Below, piece after piece: positions 15,750-21,436 of a stretch of 44,016 bases of DNA; position 1 is the stretch's first letter, and every line of letters begins with the position of its first letter. A program made the position numbers and the translations under genes. The stretch is from Desulfobacteraceae bacterium (GTDB taxonomy: Bacteria; Desulfobacterota; Desulfobacteria; Desulfobacterales; SKZT01), in NCBI GenBank assembly GCA_011389745.1, contig JAABTQ010000026.1:1-44016 (forward strand), given 5' to 3'. The notes beneath the pieces were generated by a model. The model ran no database searches and had not been told where the DNA came from. It saw only the letters and a list, made by a program, of their open reading frames with translations.

Positions 15750-16583
15750 TTACTGACGGGGATCGCGGAAATTAGAGATTGAACTGGTTTCGGTACTTCT
15801 GAACGGGTTGATATCGATACCGCCCCTCCGGGTAAATCGGGCCGACAAAGTCAGCGTTTCAGGCCTGCACTTTTGTAAGATATGGTAAAACATGATTTCC
15901 ACGCAGGATTCATGAAAACCCTGATGCTGCCGAAAGCTCACAAAATAACGCAGCAAAGAGTCCGGACGAATGCGCGATCCGGTGTATGTCACGTATACTG
16001 TTGCCCAGTCGGGTTGTCCGGTTACAGGGCAATTGGTTCGAATCAGGCGGGAAAAAAGGGTTTCAGATATCCTGTGGTTTTCCACATTGAGTAAGTTCGG
16101 GTTAATGTTGAATTCCGTAACCGTGATATGTTGGCGATCGATGCAGATTCCTTCCGGCTCCATGATCCCAAGTTGTCCAAAGGCATCGGGCAGTATCAGT
16201 TGGATAGAGACTGTCCCTTCCACAATACGTCCGATATCCCGGGCAAGGGTTTGGCGCAAAGTTTCCGGGCTTTTAATCCGGGTCATACTGAAACTGTTGA
16301 GGTAAAGCTTTAAAGATTTTGATTCCACCATATTGGGCGTTGTCACCGGTATCCTGATTTCGGCAACGGCAATGACAGGTTTTCCTTTTGAATCCAGCCA
16401 GGAAAGTTCCCAACAGTTCCATATATCCTCTCCGAAAAAAAAAAGTGGGCTGTTGTCAACGATTCCTATACCCTTTCTGGCGATTTTACGGGAAACTGAG
16501 CGCAATTGGTCCGGATCGTATGAAGTGCTTGCGAATGCCGGGTGGCCAAGAGGAAGGTCCGTCGAATATTGGCCATCAATCAT
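15750..16583 (-). CDS. queF: NADPH-dependent 7-cyano-7-deazaguanine (preQ0) reductase
   Basis: 277 residues, the long two-domain QueF form. It reduces the nitrile of preQ0 to the amine of preQ1 for queuosine in tRNA. Motifs: ESKSLKLYLNSF (NADPH and dimer motif) and TNCPVTGQPDW with the thioimide-forming cysteine and the acid aspartate, then HESCVEIMF with the substrate glutamate. It overlaps queC by four bases and is the last gene of queD-queE-queC-queF. Its presence shows the pathway goes on to preQ1 and queuosine rather than archaeosine or a DNA modification only. No tgt gene is in the window. Confidence 0.95.
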   Translation of the reverse strand: MIDGQYSTDLPLGHPAFASTSYDPDQLRSVSRKIARKGIGIVDNSPLFFFGEDIWNCWELSWLDSKGKPVIAVAEIRIPVTTPNMVESKSLKLYLNSFSMTRIKSPETLRQTLARDIGRIVEGTVSIQLILPDAFGQLGIMEPEGICIDRQHITVTEFNINPNLLNVENHRISETLFSRLIRTNCPVTGQPDWATVYVTYTGSRIRPDSLLRYFVSFRQHQGFHESCVEIMFYHILQKCRPETLTLSARFTRRGGIDINPFRSTETSSISNFRDPRQ

Positions 16584-17266
16584 TTGGAACCTCCCGAATT
16601 CAGGTAAAAGGTGGGATCCATTCCTTCTTCGCAGCGCAGGGCATATTTACGCTCCCGGCAGGCACTGCACACGCCGCAATGATGCTCGCCTCCTTTATAA
16701 CAGGTCCATGTTCGGGCAAAATCCACACCAAGCCGGCGGCCCAGATCACCAATATCGCGTTTGTCAAGCTCTTCATAAGGAAAACGAACAGAAACTTTAT
16801 TGTCGGTTCCAAGACGGGCCGCTTGTGCAAATGCCCGGTTGAATTCAGGTCTGCAATCAGGATAGATGGCATGATCTCCACCGTGAGATGCCAGAACAAC
16901 CTCTGCTGCACCAATGGTTTCGGCATATCCCACAGTAATACCCATAAGAATCGCGTTACGAAAAGGAACCACTGTTTGTTTCATGGTCAATACGTCATAG
17001 GGACCTTCAGGGACCGGTGCACCAGACAAAAGCAGGGCTGATTTAAAAAGCTCCGGTATGAATGTGAGAGGCACGACATGGTGGGATACGTTCAGACTCC
17101 GGCAGACCGCTTTGGCCATAGGAAGTTCCCGGTGGTTGTGGCGAGAGCCGTAATCAAAGCTGAGGGCTGCTGTTTTCGTGCCGCCGGCAATAAAATCGTG
17201 AAGCAATACCGTGGAATCCATACCACCTGAATATACAACGACTGTATGAACCGAGGTTTTTTTCAT
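16580..17266 (-). CDS. queC: 7-cyano-7-deazaguanine synthase QueC
   Basis: 228 residues from ATG 17266. The adenylation loop is SGGMDSTVLL near residue 14, and four cysteines near the C-terminus (TCYKGGEHHCGVCSAC) make the zinc site. QueC turns 7-carboxy-7-deazaguanine into preQ0 with ATP and ammonia. A longer open frame reaches back to 17386, but that extension overlaps queE and lacks similarity; the MKKTSVHTVVVYSGG start is the family-like one. It lies 49 bases after queE and overlaps queF by four bases. Confidence 0.95.
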   Translation of the reverse strand: MKKTSVHTVVVYSGGMDSTVLLHDFIAGGTKTAALSFDYGSRHNHRELPMAKAVCRSLNVSHHVVPLTFIPELFKSALLLSGAPVPEGPYDVLTMKQTVVPFRNAILMGITVGYAETIGAAEVVLASHGGDHAIYPDCRPEFNRAFAQAARLGTDNKVSVRFPYEELDKRDIGDLGRRLGVDFARTWTCYKGGEHHCGVCSACRERKYALRCEEGMDPTFYLNSGGSK

Positions 17267-17315
17267 GAAAATTTTCCCATCATAATTTTGAAATAGTGTA
17301 TCTAATCCGGCTAAA

Positions 17316-17933
17316 TCAAATCCCTTTTTTTTGGTCGAAAGCCAGAATATGAAGCCTGGGTGACATACAGTATCCATAACGGACACAAAGATCCCAAACC
17401 ATGGGCATTCGGACGATTTGTTTTTCCCTGCTTCGGCCCAAAGGCATCAGCCAGACCCGATTTGCCGGAAATCCGCAATGTTGTATGGCTTCCAGGGTAA
17501 TTTGCGGGTCATCCCCCACAAGGGGTTTCAGGAAGTGAGCCTTTGATATTATCCCGGGAGACGGCCATTGCCCGGGTTTGGGTGAAAGCACCACAATACC
17601 GGTGACATTTTCCGGAATACCTGCCCGTCCGCTGGTTTCGTACTGAATGCTCATCCCTTGCTCAAGCAGTTGTTGAGACAGTTGCAAAAGCCCGTCTTCC
17701 CATTGCAGGAAAGGCTCACCTCCGGTGATTACCACCAATGAACACCCATAGCTCCGCACTTGTTTCAAAATCGTTGCCAAGGCCATTGGAGTACCTTGAC
17801 CAAGAGCTTCGGGCGTATCGCAAAATTCACAGTAAGGCTTGACGCAGCCTGACATACGCACAAAAACAGCAGGTCTTCCCATAAAGGGGCCTTCTCCTTG
17901 CAGGGAATAAAAAATTTCACAAATCGCCAGCAT
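17316..17933 (-). CDS. queE: 7-carboxy-7-deazaguanine synthase (radical SAM) with a CX4CX2C cluster motif
   Basis: 205 residues from ATG 17933 (MLAICEIFYSLQGEG). QueE rearranges 6-carboxytetrahydropterin to the 7-deazaguanine ring using SAM and magnesium. Landmarks: FYSLQGEGPFMGRPAVFVRM, the Fe-S motif CVKPYCEFCDT, VVITGGEPFLQ. The cysteine spacing read here is CX4CX2C instead of the canonical CX3CX2C, one residue longer. The start overlaps queD by 17 bases; a start 13 codons earlier is open but lacks support. Confidence 0.93.
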   Translation of the reverse strand: MLAICEIFYSLQGEGPFMGRPAVFVRMSGCVKPYCEFCDTPEALGQGTPMALATILKQVRSYGCSLVVITGGEPFLQWEDGLLQLSQQLLEQGMSIQYETSGRAGIPENVTGIVVLSPKPGQWPSPGIISKAHFLKPLVGDDPQITLEAIQHCGFPANRVWLMPLGRSREKQIVRMPMVWDLCVRYGYCMSPRLHILAFDQKKGI

Positions 17934-18333
17934 GATGTTCAGTCCATTCCGCCCGTGTATCCCGTGTTTCAAATACGGTGATGCGGTGCAACCGGCAATT
18001 GGGGCGTTTCAAATGTGGACGGAGCTTAAAAAATATGGTGCGGGCAATATTCTCCGCGGTAGGCGGACACTCCTGATAATCAGGAAGATCATTGAGGCAG
18101 GCATGGTCATACCTGTCGAGAACTTCACGGGAAACCACGGCCTTGAGTTCGGAAAAATCAAGAATCCACCCATTGGCATCGGTATGACCACAAACACAAA
18201 CCTGTAAACGGTAACTGTGGCCATGAAGATCGGTACATCCACCGTAAATATCCCTATTGGCGGTTTCGGATAAATCTTTTCGGAAAAGACGATGGGCTGA
18301 ATCAAAATGGAAATCACATGTAATGGAAAGCAT
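17917..18333 (-). CDS. queD: 6-carboxy-5,6,7,8-tetrahydropterin synthase
   Basis: 138 residues from ATG 18333. QueD converts dihydroneopterin triphosphate to 6-carboxytetrahydropterin, the first committed step of the 7-deazaguanine pathway. The zinc histidines are in FDSAHRL and LHGHSY, with the catalytic cysteine in CTDLHGH (C-x3-HGH, the QueD type), plus PTAENIA and the late FETRDTRAEW glutamate. It is the first gene of the que operon. A GTG two codons upstream is possible; the ATG is preferred although its AGGTGG site sits close. Confidence 0.93.
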   Translation of the reverse strand: MLSITCDFHFDSAHRLFRKDLSETANRDIYGGCTDLHGHSYRLQVCVCGHTDANGWILDFSELKAVVSREVLDRYDHACLNDLPDYQECPPTAENIARTIFFKLRPHLKRPNCRLHRITVFETRDTRAEWTEHHAGDL

Positions 18334-18427
18334 AGCCACCTGTTTTGAGTGAGGGATAATTTCTATAGCGGGATGCCGCTCGTCCGCTGGATAATAAATT
18401 AAAGCAACTAATGATGATATTGGGGGA

Positions 18428-18848: not shown

Positions 18849-20471
18849 TCAATTGGAAACCGCCCTGAAATTTTCGGTATATTCTCCATTACCGTTGATG
18901 ATCTCGATGGCTTCCGCGCGATAAGCATCCATAATATAGGGAATTCCGGTCACTTTCGCAGCTTCTTCGGTTAATGACGCCAGGTCTTTTCTGGACATAA
19001 AATCGACTCTCCATTTTCTTGCTCCGGCCATAAGCTGTTGCAGGCCTACACGGATTTTTTCTCCTGCACTGTAAATACCGATTGCTCCAAGCGGAAGATT
19101 GTCAATTTCCTTGCCGTATTTTTCCTTCAAATCTGCATAAGCCACGAAAATTTCTTCCTTGGTGGTGCCGAACTTCGAAACTGTCGAGGGAAGTCCGCCA
19201 TCTTCACCGCGCAGCCACCGGTCGATATTTTTGCCTACCATTCCCGGAATCATCAGGGCACGTCCCATGCATACGGCCTTGCAATAAGGAGCGCCTAATG
19301 AAAGGGCTTTGAAAATGTGATCTTCGGAGGAAAATCCGCCGGCAAATGCAATGTCAGGTACCCATGCTCCTTTTTCCGCCAACATGTTGCACAGTTCTAC
19401 CGCCATGGAATGTAAATAAATGGAAGGAATTCCCCATTCGGCCATCATCCGCCACGGACTCATTCCGGTACCGCCCGGGGCCCCATCGATTGTCAGCAGA
19501 TCGATTTTGGCATCGGATGACCATCGGATCGCCATGGCCAATTCTCTCATGGGATAAGCGCCGGTTTTTAATGTGATACGTTTGGCACCCAGATTTCTAA
19601 TCCGCTCAACCTCTTTCATGAACCCTTCCTGATCGACAAATCCCAGCCGGGAGTGACGTTCGAACTCTTTTATCGCGCCACTTTTAAAGGCTTCCTGGTT
19701 GGCTTTACTTTCAGGATCGGGTGTAACAATGTAGCCTCTTTTTTTCAGTTCAAGTGCCCTTTCCAAAGAGCTGACCTTGATTTCACCACCGATACATTTG
19801 GCTCCCTGACCCCATTTAAGTTCGATGGTTTCCACACCGAGTTTATCAATGACATATTCGGCCACACCAAGACGTGTATCCTCAACATTAAGCTGCACAA
19901 GAATATCACCGTAGCCTTCATGAAATCTGCGATAAGATTCAACACGTCTTCTCATATCCGGAGATTCTTTGACTTTTCCATTGCTATGAAATTCCAGTCC
20001 GGGATCGATTCCGCACACATTTTCGCCACAAACAAGGCTGATTCCGGTAATTGCAGCACCCACAGCAAAATGTTCCCAGTTTGCCCTTGCAATTTCAGTA
20101 CTTCCTAACGCACCCGTAAACATGGGAATTTTCATTTTGACTTTGTGAGTGACCCCATATTCGGTTTCAGTGCTTACCCTGGGAAATGTGGCCATGTCCG
20201 AGTTGGCTGCAATCCCCGAAGCTCCAAGGGCATAGCCCATGATATTCAGGTGGGAATAATCCACGGGGTAGTCTTTGTCCGCTCCGGCAGTGATTTCACC
20301 AAAAGGCGCCGGATAAAGCAGCTCCCTTCCTCTGAACGTGGCATTGAAAAGGTCACAGTTTCCCTTGCAGCCATCAATGCATCTGCTGCAGAGTCCTGAC
20401 TGGGGTGCTACATCCCTGGAACGGTTCTTGGTTCTTAAAGCCTCGTTGGCATTGGGTTTATGAAGATTCAT
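18849..20471 (-). CDS. FMN-binding glutamate synthase-like protein (archaeal-type GltB core)
   Basis: 540 residues. The C-terminal two thirds are the FMN-binding alpha/beta-barrel of glutamate synthase: ELKWGQGAKCIGGEIK, RITLKTGAYPM, IDGAPGGTGMSPW, and the GRALM segment. The N-terminus carries a cysteine cluster (CSRCIDGCKGNC, about 27-38). The N-terminal glutamine amidotransferase domain and the GXGXG domain of large GltB are absent, as in archaeal-type enzymes, so ammonia must come from a separate subunit. It should make glutamate from 2-oxoglutarate and glutamine-derived ammonia, though related proteins have other roles. An AGGAGGT site precedes the ATG. The leader contains an ANTAR-type antitermination device, and the regulator gene is next door. 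Confidence 0.85.
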   Translation of the reverse strand: MNLHKPNANEALRTKNRSRDVAPQSGLCSRCIDGCKGNCDLFNATFRGRELLYPAPFGEITAGADKDYPVDYSHLNIMGYALGASGIAANSDMATFPRVSTETEYGVTHKVKMKIPMFTGALGSTEIARANWEHFAVGAAITGISLVCGENVCGIDPGLEFHSNGKVKESPDMRRRVESYRRFHEGYGDILVQLNVEDTRLGVAEYVIDKLGVETIELKWGQGAKCIGGEIKVSSLERALELKKRGYIVTPDPESKANQEAFKSGAIKEFERHSRLGFVDQEGFMKEVERIRNLGAKRITLKTGAYPMRELAMAIRWSSDAKIDLLTIDGAPGGTGMSPWRMMAEWGIPSIYLHSMAVELCNMLAEKGAWVPDIAFAGGFSSEDHIFKALSLGAPYCKAVCMGRALMIPGMVGKNIDRWLRGEDGGLPSTVSKFGTTKEEIFVAYADLKEKYGKEIDNLPLGAIGIYSAGEKIRVGLQQLMAGARKWRVDFMSRKDLASLTEEAAKVTGIPYIMDAYRAEAIEIINGNGEYTENFRAVSN

Positions 20472-20520
20472 TTTGAAATACCTCCTGTGTAATTTAGAAA
20501 ATTAAAAACGCCGGAAATGG

Positions 20521-20565
20521 AAAAACAAAAAGGCGCCTACCCAAAATCAGGGTAAAGACGCCTTT
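20521..20565 (-). terminator. Intrinsic terminator inside the glutamate synthase leader
   Basis: In the minus-strand RNA, AAAGGCG (20565-20559) pairs with CGCCUUU (20535-20529), and ACCC (20553-20550) pairs with GGGU (20542-20539), with a small internal loop. A U-rich tract (UUUUGUUUUU, including 20528-20521) follows. It lies 50 bases before the glutamate synthase start, so without antitermination most transcripts should stop here. Confidence 0.8.
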
Positions 20566-20614
20566 GTCTTGTAATTTGATGAAAAATTCGCACGCCATTG
20601 TGCAAATTTTTCAT
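20555..20614 (-). promoter_or_regulatory. ANTAR-type dual-hexaloop antitermination RNA
   Basis: First hairpin: a stem of at least 13 pairs (20612-20600 with 20593-20581, one G-U) capped by the six-base loop AAUGGC at 20599-20594. Second hairpin: AAGAC (20570-20566), loop AAAGGC (20565-20560), GUCUU (20559-20555). Both loops have A at position 1 and G at position 4, the known ANTAR recognition code. The second hairpin uses bases 20565-20555, which the terminator also needs, so the two folds exclude each other. A GAF-ANTAR protein is encoded immediately upstream. Confidence 0.88.
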
Positions 20615-20636: not shown

Positions 20637-20665
20637 TTTTTAGCGCCACTTAATATAAATGTCAA
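20637..20665 (-). promoter_or_regulatory. Promoter of the glutamate synthase-like gene, flanked by an inverted repeat
   Basis: TTGACA at 20665-20660 and TAAAAA at 20642-20637 with 17 bases between them place the start of transcription near 20630, just before the antitermination hairpins. A 12-base imperfect inverted repeat (TAGCGCCACTTA at 20641-20652 and TTAGTGTCGCTA at 20695-20706) brackets the -35 and could be an operator. Confidence 0.55.
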
Positions 20666-20722
20666 GAATTTTTCCTGAAAATTTTTTAATTTATTTAGTG
20701 TCGCTAATGGTGATGGTTTGAT

Positions 20723-21436
20723 TTATTCGAGTTCTTCGGATAAAAGAATGGCTTCTGCCACATGGCGTATGGATTTTCGCGTATCCATGGCCCGTTTCTG
20801 GATCCATCGGTAGGCTTCTTCACCGGTTTTGTTTCGTCGGTGCATCAGGACTTCCTTAGCCCGTTCCACAAGTTTCCGGGTTTCGAGTTCTTCCTGGATG
20901 ACTTTGGTCTTGACCATCAACTCAGTATTCATAATCCCCACTGCCGCCTGGTTGGCAACGGTGCGGATAAGGTTCACCTCCGTTTCACTGAAATGATATG
21001 TTTTGACCGTGAAGCAGTTTAAAACACCGACTACTTTGCCATCTCTTACCTGCAGCGGAACACTGAGCATGGAAACCAGGCCCAGTTTACGGGCCATTTC
21101 CTTTTCTTTAAATAAGGGTTCCTTGAGAACATCCTGAATCATAAGGGGTTGCTTATGGGTAGCCACATATCCGACCACTCCCTCGGTCAAATCCAGCGAA
21201 CGATCCTTGACATAATCCGGGTCGATTGTTTGGGAAGCTTTGAGCCTGATTTTTGGCGGGTTGATACTATCATCGATCAGCCAAAGTGAACATATTTCAT
21301 ACCCAGTCACCTTGGCTGTGACCATAACAATAAGTTTAAGTATATCTTCAAGATAAAAATCAGAGGTAATGGCCCGGCTGATATCCATCAGAGCCTTGAT
21401 GTACTTATCGTATGTTTCCGTATCAGCCTTTTCCAT
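20723..21436 (-). CDS. GAF-ANTAR transcription antitermination regulator
   Basis: 237 residues: a GAF sensor domain at about 25-165 (EDILKLIVMVTAKVTGYEIC, GVVGYVATHKQPLMIQDV, SMLSVPLQVRDGKVVGVLNC), a short coiled coil, and an ANTAR RNA-binding domain at about 178-235 (LETRKLVERAKEVLMHRRNK, GEEAYRWIQKRAMDTRKS). ANTAR dimers bind paired hexaloop hairpins and prevent terminator folding. Here the target-like hairpins stand in the next leader, before a glutamate synthase-like gene. There is no receiver domain, so activation would come from a ligand or partner acting on the GAF domain, not from phosphorelay. In Geobacter, ANTAR proteins control nitrogen genes, which fits this context. Confidence 0.92.
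   Translation of the reverse strand: MEKADTETYDKYIKALMDISRAITSDFYLEDILKLIVMVTAKVTGYEICSLWLIDDSINPPKIRLKASQTIDPDYVKDRSLDLTEGVVGYVATHKQPLMIQDVLKEPLFKEKEMARKLGLVSMLSVPLQVRDGKVVGVLNCFTVKTYHFSETEVNLIRTVANQAAVGIMNTELMVKTKVIQEELETRKLVERAKEVLMHRRNKTGEEAYRWIQKRAMDTRKSIRHVAEAILLSEELE

Follow-up and report, generated by a model that had tools for sequence, protein, structure and literature searches.

The window analysed here, a stretch of 44,016 nucleotides, is contig C19 of a 3.6-Mb genome in 80 contigs. Its minus strand carries, in this order, a GAF-ANTAR gene, a promoter-like element, two hairpins that we call P1 and P2, a terminator with its U-tract, the sequence AGGAGG and the ATG of a glutamate-synthase-like gene, glt. 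The features of the locus are the following:

20723..21436, minus strand: gene of a GAF-ANTAR one-component regulator, 237 aa (Pfam GAF 1.1e-20, ANTAR 7.8e-19)
20660..20665, minus strand: -35 hexamer TTGACA of the probable leader promoter (conserved TTGAC upstream of leaders)
20637..20642, minus strand: -10-like hexamer TAAAAA, 17 nt after the -35 hexamer (T-A-A columns in TTGAC-aligned rows)
20579..20614, minus strand: P1 hairpin, 15 bp, hexaloop AAUGGC at 20594-20599 (fold and covariation)
20555..20570, minus strand: P2 hairpin AAGAC[AAAGGC]GUCUU, 5 bp, hexaloop at 20560-20565, the proposed antiterminator (fold)
20529..20565, minus strand: terminator hairpin, mutually exclusive with P2 by pairing (fold and covariation)
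20521..20531, minus strand: U-rich tract of the terminator (sequence)
20481..20486, minus strand: ribosome-binding site AGGAGG of the glt-like gene (sequence)
18849..20471, minus strand: glt, gene of a glutamate-synthase-like FMN-domain protein, 540 aa, PF01645 (Pfam)

The GAF-ANTAR gene ends at 20723, which leaves 108 nt to P1. Both loops have six bases with A at position 1 (A1) and G at position 4 (G4), on hairpins of at least 3 bp as the dual-hexaloop pattern demands, and the linker between P1 and P2 measures 8 nt. A first-pass annotation of this DNA had reported the hexaloops AAUGGC and AAAGGC, the second lying in the 5' half of a terminator with a U-tract, and we could confirm both the sequences and their coordinates. 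Its GAF, ANTAR and Glu_synthase domain calls were right as well: ANTAR (PF03861) scores 67.6 bits against a Pfam gathering threshold of 27.3, and Glu_synthase (PF01645) scores 50.5 bits against 20.4 (E 2.3e-13), over residues 278-408 only.

The 94 nt from 20614 to 20521 on the minus strand fold at -40 kcal/mol (z = -7.6), and none of 200 shuffled sequences was as stable. Since the loop and the 3' arm of P2 serve as the 5' arm of the terminator, the two structures exclude each other, and as the fold with P2 forced is less stable than the terminator fold by 5.3 kcal/mol, 'off' is the default state. A detector that looks for two A1/G4 hexaloop hairpins, the second overlapping a terminator, found a single site on the two strands of the 44-kb window; when run on random first-order Markov sequences of window length, it reported any site in 3 of 150, with a mean of 0.02 sites each. 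In an Rfam scan of the entire window no family reached its gathering score. Two sub-threshold matches were rejected, namely the trpB motif (RF04312; 24.2 bits against a gathering score of 59, E 0.32), which matches exactly 20521-20614, and P11 (23.1 bits against 70, E 0.0038), whose match covers the leader. Downstream of the glt-like gene, at 15750-18339 on the minus strand, the window holds a queuosine biosynthesis cluster (QueD-like protein, radical SAM protein, QueC and QueF).

Covariation and loop conservation

The first-pass annotation had named a lack of covariation in relatives beforehand as an observation that could overturn its reading of the element as an ANTAR leader, but P1 and the terminator do covary. 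Twenty-one leader rows were pulled by pattern and 17 of them were aligned with MAFFT; L025 was included without its terminator, and the rows omitted were the two leaders with a long linker (L013 and L019), the upstream P1 in L014 and, in L004, the second of the tandem units. For P1 plus terminator, 93.6% of the cells in this alignment are paired, and changes on both sides occur at 10 pairs and in 30 cells, against shuffled means of 5.4 and 9.6; none of 500 shuffles was as high, and every measure was lower in slid versions of the structure. For P1 plus P2, 27 cells are changed on both sides against a shuffled 9.9 (0 of 500 as high). There are 7 pairs so changed and 19 pair types; the first figure was reached in 67 of 500 shuffles and in two slid versions, the second in one slid version, so that slid versions match two of the five measures.

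From the 17 rows we built R1, a model of P1 plus terminator, and searched the window together with 70 named loci, obtaining 34 matches at E <= 0.01. The window and 22 loci from outside the training set were then realigned without structure. Left out were 11 R1 matches, on the training contigs L137, L139, L140, L143, L146 and L164, on L147 (two), on the truncated L176 and on L178 and L179, both weak and on the minus strand. In this second alignment, the loci of which had been found by a structure-aware model that scores pairs and the shuffles of which ignore relatedness, 92.1% of the cells of P1 plus terminator are paired, and 10 pairs and 52 cells are changed on both sides, against a shuffled 5.6 and 17.6; again none of 500 shuffles was as high and slid versions were lower. 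P1 plus P2 has 42 cells changed on both sides against a shuffled 14.9 (0 of 500). In each alignment P1 changes on both sides at 6 of its 8 pairs. The three top (inner) pairs of P2 are almost unchanging in both, as expected because hairpin and terminator use the same bases, and covariation does not speak for P2 apart from the terminator.

Across the 40 rows of the two alignments, in which the window is counted twice, A occupies loop base 1 in all 40 rows for P1 and in 39 for P2, and G occupies loop base 4 in 39 rows for P1 and in all 40 for P2. Loop base 2 is A in every row and base 3 of P1 varies freely. From loop to loop, the aligned rows measure 26-47 nt. Three arrangements that stand outside the alignments (L013, L019 and the upstream P1 of L014) measure 60-65 nt. 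Changes in the linker are reported to impair EutV (PMC8934654; PMC3369931), and the 8 nt of the window lie within the 5-12 nt given for the eut leaders of Enterococcus faecalis.

Exceptions to the loop rule are the P2 loop GAGGGC in the elements of G035 (L035, L091) and the P1 loop AATTAT in that of G036 (L088). In L004 (G039), L014 (G004) and L019 (G014), either the P2-terminator unit occurs in tandem or one more hexaloop hairpin stands between P1 and P2. Five leaders that the model missed (L188, L192, L193, L194 and L050) retain A1/G4 hexaloops by eye; one example has the P1 TAATAC[AAGGGC]GTATTA and the P2 GAC[AACGGA]GTC with a different terminator sequence.

Probable leader promoter and co-occurrence with the ANTAR gene

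The leader probably has a promoter of its own, since TTGAC is conserved upstream across leaders. The motif lies within 60 nt upstream of 29 of 30 leaders (the miss being L147), against a mean of 1.5 and a maximum of 5 in composition-shuffled sequences. Among 18 other elements, 16 have it in the 90 nt that precede them; the two misses are G036 and G035:C319, the latter with only 32 nt of upstream sequence to scan. When the 29 rows with the motif are aligned on TTGAC, T-A-A occupies columns 24-26 in 76-79% of them. A consensus promoter scan of the window alone returned 3 sites against 2.3 in shuffles, which is not above chance, and the evidence for the promoter is therefore its conservation rather than a consensus match; that scan favours an 18-nt spacer with AAAAAT as the -10 hexamer. 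Near the leader promoter there are partial inverted repeats, TTAG-N5-CTAA or TTAGC-N3-GCTAA in form, at 20695-20707 in the window and in the promoter spacers of L144, L203 and L165; they may be a repressor site.

We examined co-occurrence in 58 genomes, the genome of the window and relatives. Homologues of the regulator at E < 1e-80 are present in 32 of them (33 matches, with 58-83% identity when the window's own is excluded), and PF03861 is found in the same 32. R1 matches at E <= 0.01 occur in 30 genomes, 29 of the 32 with the ANTAR gene against 1 of the 26 lacking it; these, like the counts below, are raw genome counts that are not corrected for phylogeny, and absences are less certain than presences, the scans having scored part of the first-look candidates (76 per genome in the 58 genomes, 150 of 933 in the window's own). 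The lone genome with the RNA and no ANTAR gene, G033, is 65% complete. When the 17 training genomes are removed, the RNA remains in 12 of 15 genomes with the ANTAR gene against 1 of 26 (Fisher p = 7e-7). Three genomes with the ANTAR gene gave no R1 match among the candidates scored (G020, G043 and G053), and in G043 a divergent dual-hexaloop leader is visible by eye.

The same pattern is seen at the target gene. Among the 38 genomes in which glt was found (E <= 1e-40), the RNA lies no more than 400 nt upstream of it in 24 of 26 with the ANTAR gene against 1 of 12 without, and in 10 of 11 against 1 of 12 when the training genomes are removed (p = 1e-4). In 10 of these 24 genomes the ANTAR gene is not adjacent: the leader and glt are clearly apart from it in seven (G004, G011, G019, G023, G038, G044 and G046; contig ends checked), and in G006, G035 and G036 contig ends could adjoin across an assembly gap. 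Because the RNA precedes glt where the ANTAR gene lies elsewhere, we conclude that it belongs with the target gene and not with the regulator gene. Regulator, leader and glt stand together in 14 of the 58 genomes, and the first-pass description of an 'unusually clean' unit was thus overstated; it is further weakened by Ramesh et al. 2012 (PMC3369931), where ANTAR RNAs are tied to glutamate synthase and other nitrogen genes.

In the genome of the window, R1 has one strong match of 83 bits and the next scores 21.6 (150 of 933 candidates scored). Inspection by eye showed no hexaloops in the matches at 21.6 and 19.8 bits (E 0.7 and 1.7), which were put down to chance. A single PF03861 protein was found in this genome, and a control panel of 14 genomes, E. 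coli among them, gave no ANTAR match. Of 297 genomes drawn from the phylum, 51 match R1 at E <= 0.001 (15 candidates scored per genome), and 16 of 25 further loci (L207-L231) hold a regulator homologue, all 16 with glt downstream on the same strand.

Genes preceded by the RNA

The 39 R1 matches in the 58 genomes comprise 26 before glt (25 genes, as G039 has two in tandem) and 13 elsewhere. In three genomes the RNA precedes a glutamate dehydrogenase gene directly downstream of the GAF-ANTAR gene (L051 in G025, L036 in G027 and L019 in G014); PF00208 matches at all three sites, the G025 protein exceeds the NCBIfam cut-off for NADP-dependent glutamate dehydrogenase, and a glt search at E <= 1e-40 did not find glt in any of the three genomes. 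One match precedes a gene for a GOGAT glutaminase domain (G004), and three precede an amidotransferase-like gene with a second PF01645 gene of GltB type (G044, G029 and G035), assigned by Pfam in G044 and by 84% identity to G044 in the other two. The amidotransferase-like label of the G044 protein was read from its MCRLF start, Pfam and NCBIfam searches giving no match for it, and the partner was not found in the genome of the window by a search that had no positive control and so carries little weight.

Four further matches precede an operon that we take to be mvhD/FlpD-metV-metF, the names mvhD and metV being in part our assumption (L086, G047:C410; L096, G018:C17:3475-3564; L097, G019:C67:56564-56647; L099, G005:C42). 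The genes of G018 and G019 were called by Pfam and metF was identified in all four by tblastn, the other three being 72-75% identical to that of G019. A methylene-THF reductase behind a nitrogen-type regulator was unexpected, and a full-text search found no literature that pairs an ANTAR protein with methylenetetrahydrofolate reductase. The remaining two matches lie at contig ends (G008 and G035:C324); a single base separates the two G035 matches, which may be the same element seen on two contig ends. Overall, 37 matches can be assigned, and 33 of them stand before genes of glutamate-forming enzymes or of relatives of these enzymes. The genome of the window also has two PF00208 genes, neither with an R1 match.

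The glt-like protein is the only PF01645 match in its genome, which is estimated to be 99.9% complete. The class-II glutaminase domain PF00310 (GATase_2) is absent from it and an NCBIfam search gave no match; with both the glutaminase domain and a full-length match missing, we rejected its identification as a canonical GOGAT large subunit. It has the stretches E-x-K-x-GQGAK and IDG-x-x-GGTG in common with a clearer PF01645 protein, which scores 192 bits; for the pair, hhalign gives a probability of 77 and E 2e-5. Compared with solved structures by sequence, it matched only two designed TIM barrels. Its AlphaFold model is poor (mean pLDDT 55.5, 12 sequences) and was given little weight; a fold search with this low-confidence model retrieved FMN alpha/beta barrels generally, with no specific enzyme among the best 50 matches.

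Judged from the company that the RNA keeps across the regulon, the output of the leader is probably the formation of glutamate. It is conceivable, though unlikely, that the RNA is an ANTAR target serving another end, with the PF01645 protein carrying out a different flavin reaction and the regulator sensing redox or one-carbon status. The divergence of the protein would fit such a role, with its partial PF01645 match, its missing glutaminase domain and NCBIfam match and a low-confidence model that resembles FMN barrels in general, as would the four mvhD-metV-metF operons; against it stand the glutamate dehydrogenase genes that follow the RNA in the three genomes where glt was not found, the GOGAT and second GltB-type operons that follow it elsewhere, and the two stretches held in common with the 192-bit PF01645 protein. 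A tentative extension of the glutamate reading, on which we would lean slightly to the sceptical side, is that the GAF-ANTAR protein governs a small antitermination regulon in Desulfobacterota that is defined by outcome and not by homology and that embraces routes to glutamate together with mvhD-metV-metF. More speculatively, the GAF domain may read a nitrogen or carbon signal, for example 2-oxoglutarate.

Probable ANTAR antitermination and its regulator

We consider it very probable that the element is a genuine cis-acting ANTAR antitermination leader, as the first-pass annotation had proposed: the terminator covaries as P1 does, presence of the RNA goes with that of the ANTAR gene, and the RNA stays before glt where that gene lies elsewhere. 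Against this reading count the near-invariance of the inner pairs of P2, the replacement of EutV E160 and the differences at the R168, N173 and R177 equivalents described below, the loop-to-loop distances of up to 65 nt, given that linker changes impair EutV, and the members that break the loop rule. In the mechanism that we envisage, a promoter just past the GAF-ANTAR gene would start a transcript in which P1 folds, and by default the stabler terminator would form and transcription would stop before the glt-like gene. Upon receipt of a signal by the GAF domain, an ANTAR dimer would bind the A1/G4 hexaloops and hold P2 as a short hairpin, the terminator would be blocked and the glt-like gene would be transcribed. 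Binding, the mutual exclusion of P2 and terminator in the cell and antitermination itself are steps that we infer by analogy with EutV and NasR.

An attenuator of another kind, be it a riboswitch for a metabolite, one that works through a leader peptide or a member of a known family (the trpB motif or P11, for instance), is highly improbable: the sub-threshold Rfam matches to these two families do cover the element, but no family reached its gathering score, the presence of the RNA follows the ANTAR gene, the conserved core consists of two short hexaloop hairpins that are in our judgement small for a ligand pocket, and reading the stretch from promoter to P1 by eye revealed no leader peptide. 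Least probable of all is that the GAF-ANTAR gene simply has its intrinsic terminator here, with another hairpin beside it by chance, for although a terminator does lie downstream of that gene on the same strand, a conserved -35 element stands between the gene and the hairpins, the unlinked loci at which the element precedes glt without an ANTAR gene contradict this explanation, P1 covaries and its loop is conserved, and the detector averages 0.02 sites per random window.

The antitermination mechanism is a known one, and the leader is a well-supported new example of it. A pair of A1/G4 hexaloops is the published ANTAR signature (PMC3369931, PMC8934654), and ANTAR RNAs are described as widespread in firmicutes and proteobacteria (PMC8164766). 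Like EutV-type leaders such as that of E. faecalis eutP (PMC3369931, PMC8934654), the leader of the window has dual A1/G4 hexaloops, a P2 that overlaps the terminator and an ANTAR protein in the same genome. In contrast to the EutV system, its regulator is a GAF one-component protein rather than a phosphorylated response regulator, its target is glutamate-related, and its P1 has 15 bp. The NasR/nasF leader of Klebsiella oxytoca (PMC7496416) also depends on a one-component ANTAR regulator and precedes a nitrogen-assimilation operon; NasR carries a NIT nitrate sensor where the regulator of the window has GAF. The genome of the window is a minimal case, with one RNA of this kind and one ANTAR protein found in it. 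Desulfotomaculum reducens and D. acetoxidans are Firmicutes. For the former, ANTAR RNAs were predicted by Ramesh et al. 2012 (PMC3369931) at genes of glutamate synthase, for the latter in nitrogen regulons, and the same study predicted them in nitrogen regulons broadly. These predictions resemble the window in both RNA architecture and kind of target; unlike these two organisms, the window belongs to a Desulfobacterales-type genome with its single protein and RNA. A search for ANTAR in Desulfobacter or Desulfo returned no dedicated study among the matches listed, and relatives possibly figure in the supplementary tables of Ramesh 2012. By comparative evidence, our data extend ANTAR antitermination to a large set of relatives of sulfate reducers, most of them uncultured. 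ANTAR proteins with a GAF domain were called uncharacterised in 2012 (PMC3369931), and the pair would therefore be a convenient system for finding what a GAF-ANTAR protein senses; the GAF-ANTAR class is mentioned in passing in PMC7496416, the sole full-text match for the term.

By regulator protein, the nearest named relatives come mostly from metagenome assemblies of Desulfobacterales and of other Deltaproteobacteria, and the best NCBIfam match of the regulator is the N-terminal region of NifA (56 bits against a cut-off of 529). To compare it with EutV, the RNA-contact residues, agreement at which is a correlate and not part of the definition of an ANTAR protein, were mapped through EutV chain 6wsh, the number in the paper being in our mapping the chain number minus 2. 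The regulator keeps R142, K143, K149, Y164, M172 and R175 of EutV and has Arg for K147; it differs at E160 (Gly), R168 (Gln), N173 (Asp) and R177 (Ser). Among 103 distinct homologue sequences, 101 span the EutV-equivalent positions, and in these the equivalents of R142, K143, K149 and R175 are identical in all 101 and that of M172 in 100, Y164 is represented by Y, F or H, and the equivalents of R168, N173 and R177 mostly differ from EutV.

E160 of EutV contacts G4, and its alanine mutant is reported to bind 60-fold worse (PMC8934654). The equivalent position, residue 205 of the GAF-ANTAR protein (20822-20824), is Glu in none of the 101 homologues and instead G in 71, A in 19, V in 3, S in 3, P in 3, M in 1 and I in 1. 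Either a neighbouring acidic residue substitutes for E160 or the clade reads G4 differently. The absence of the G4-contacting Glu makes the clade a sharp test case for hexaloop recognition by ANTAR domains.
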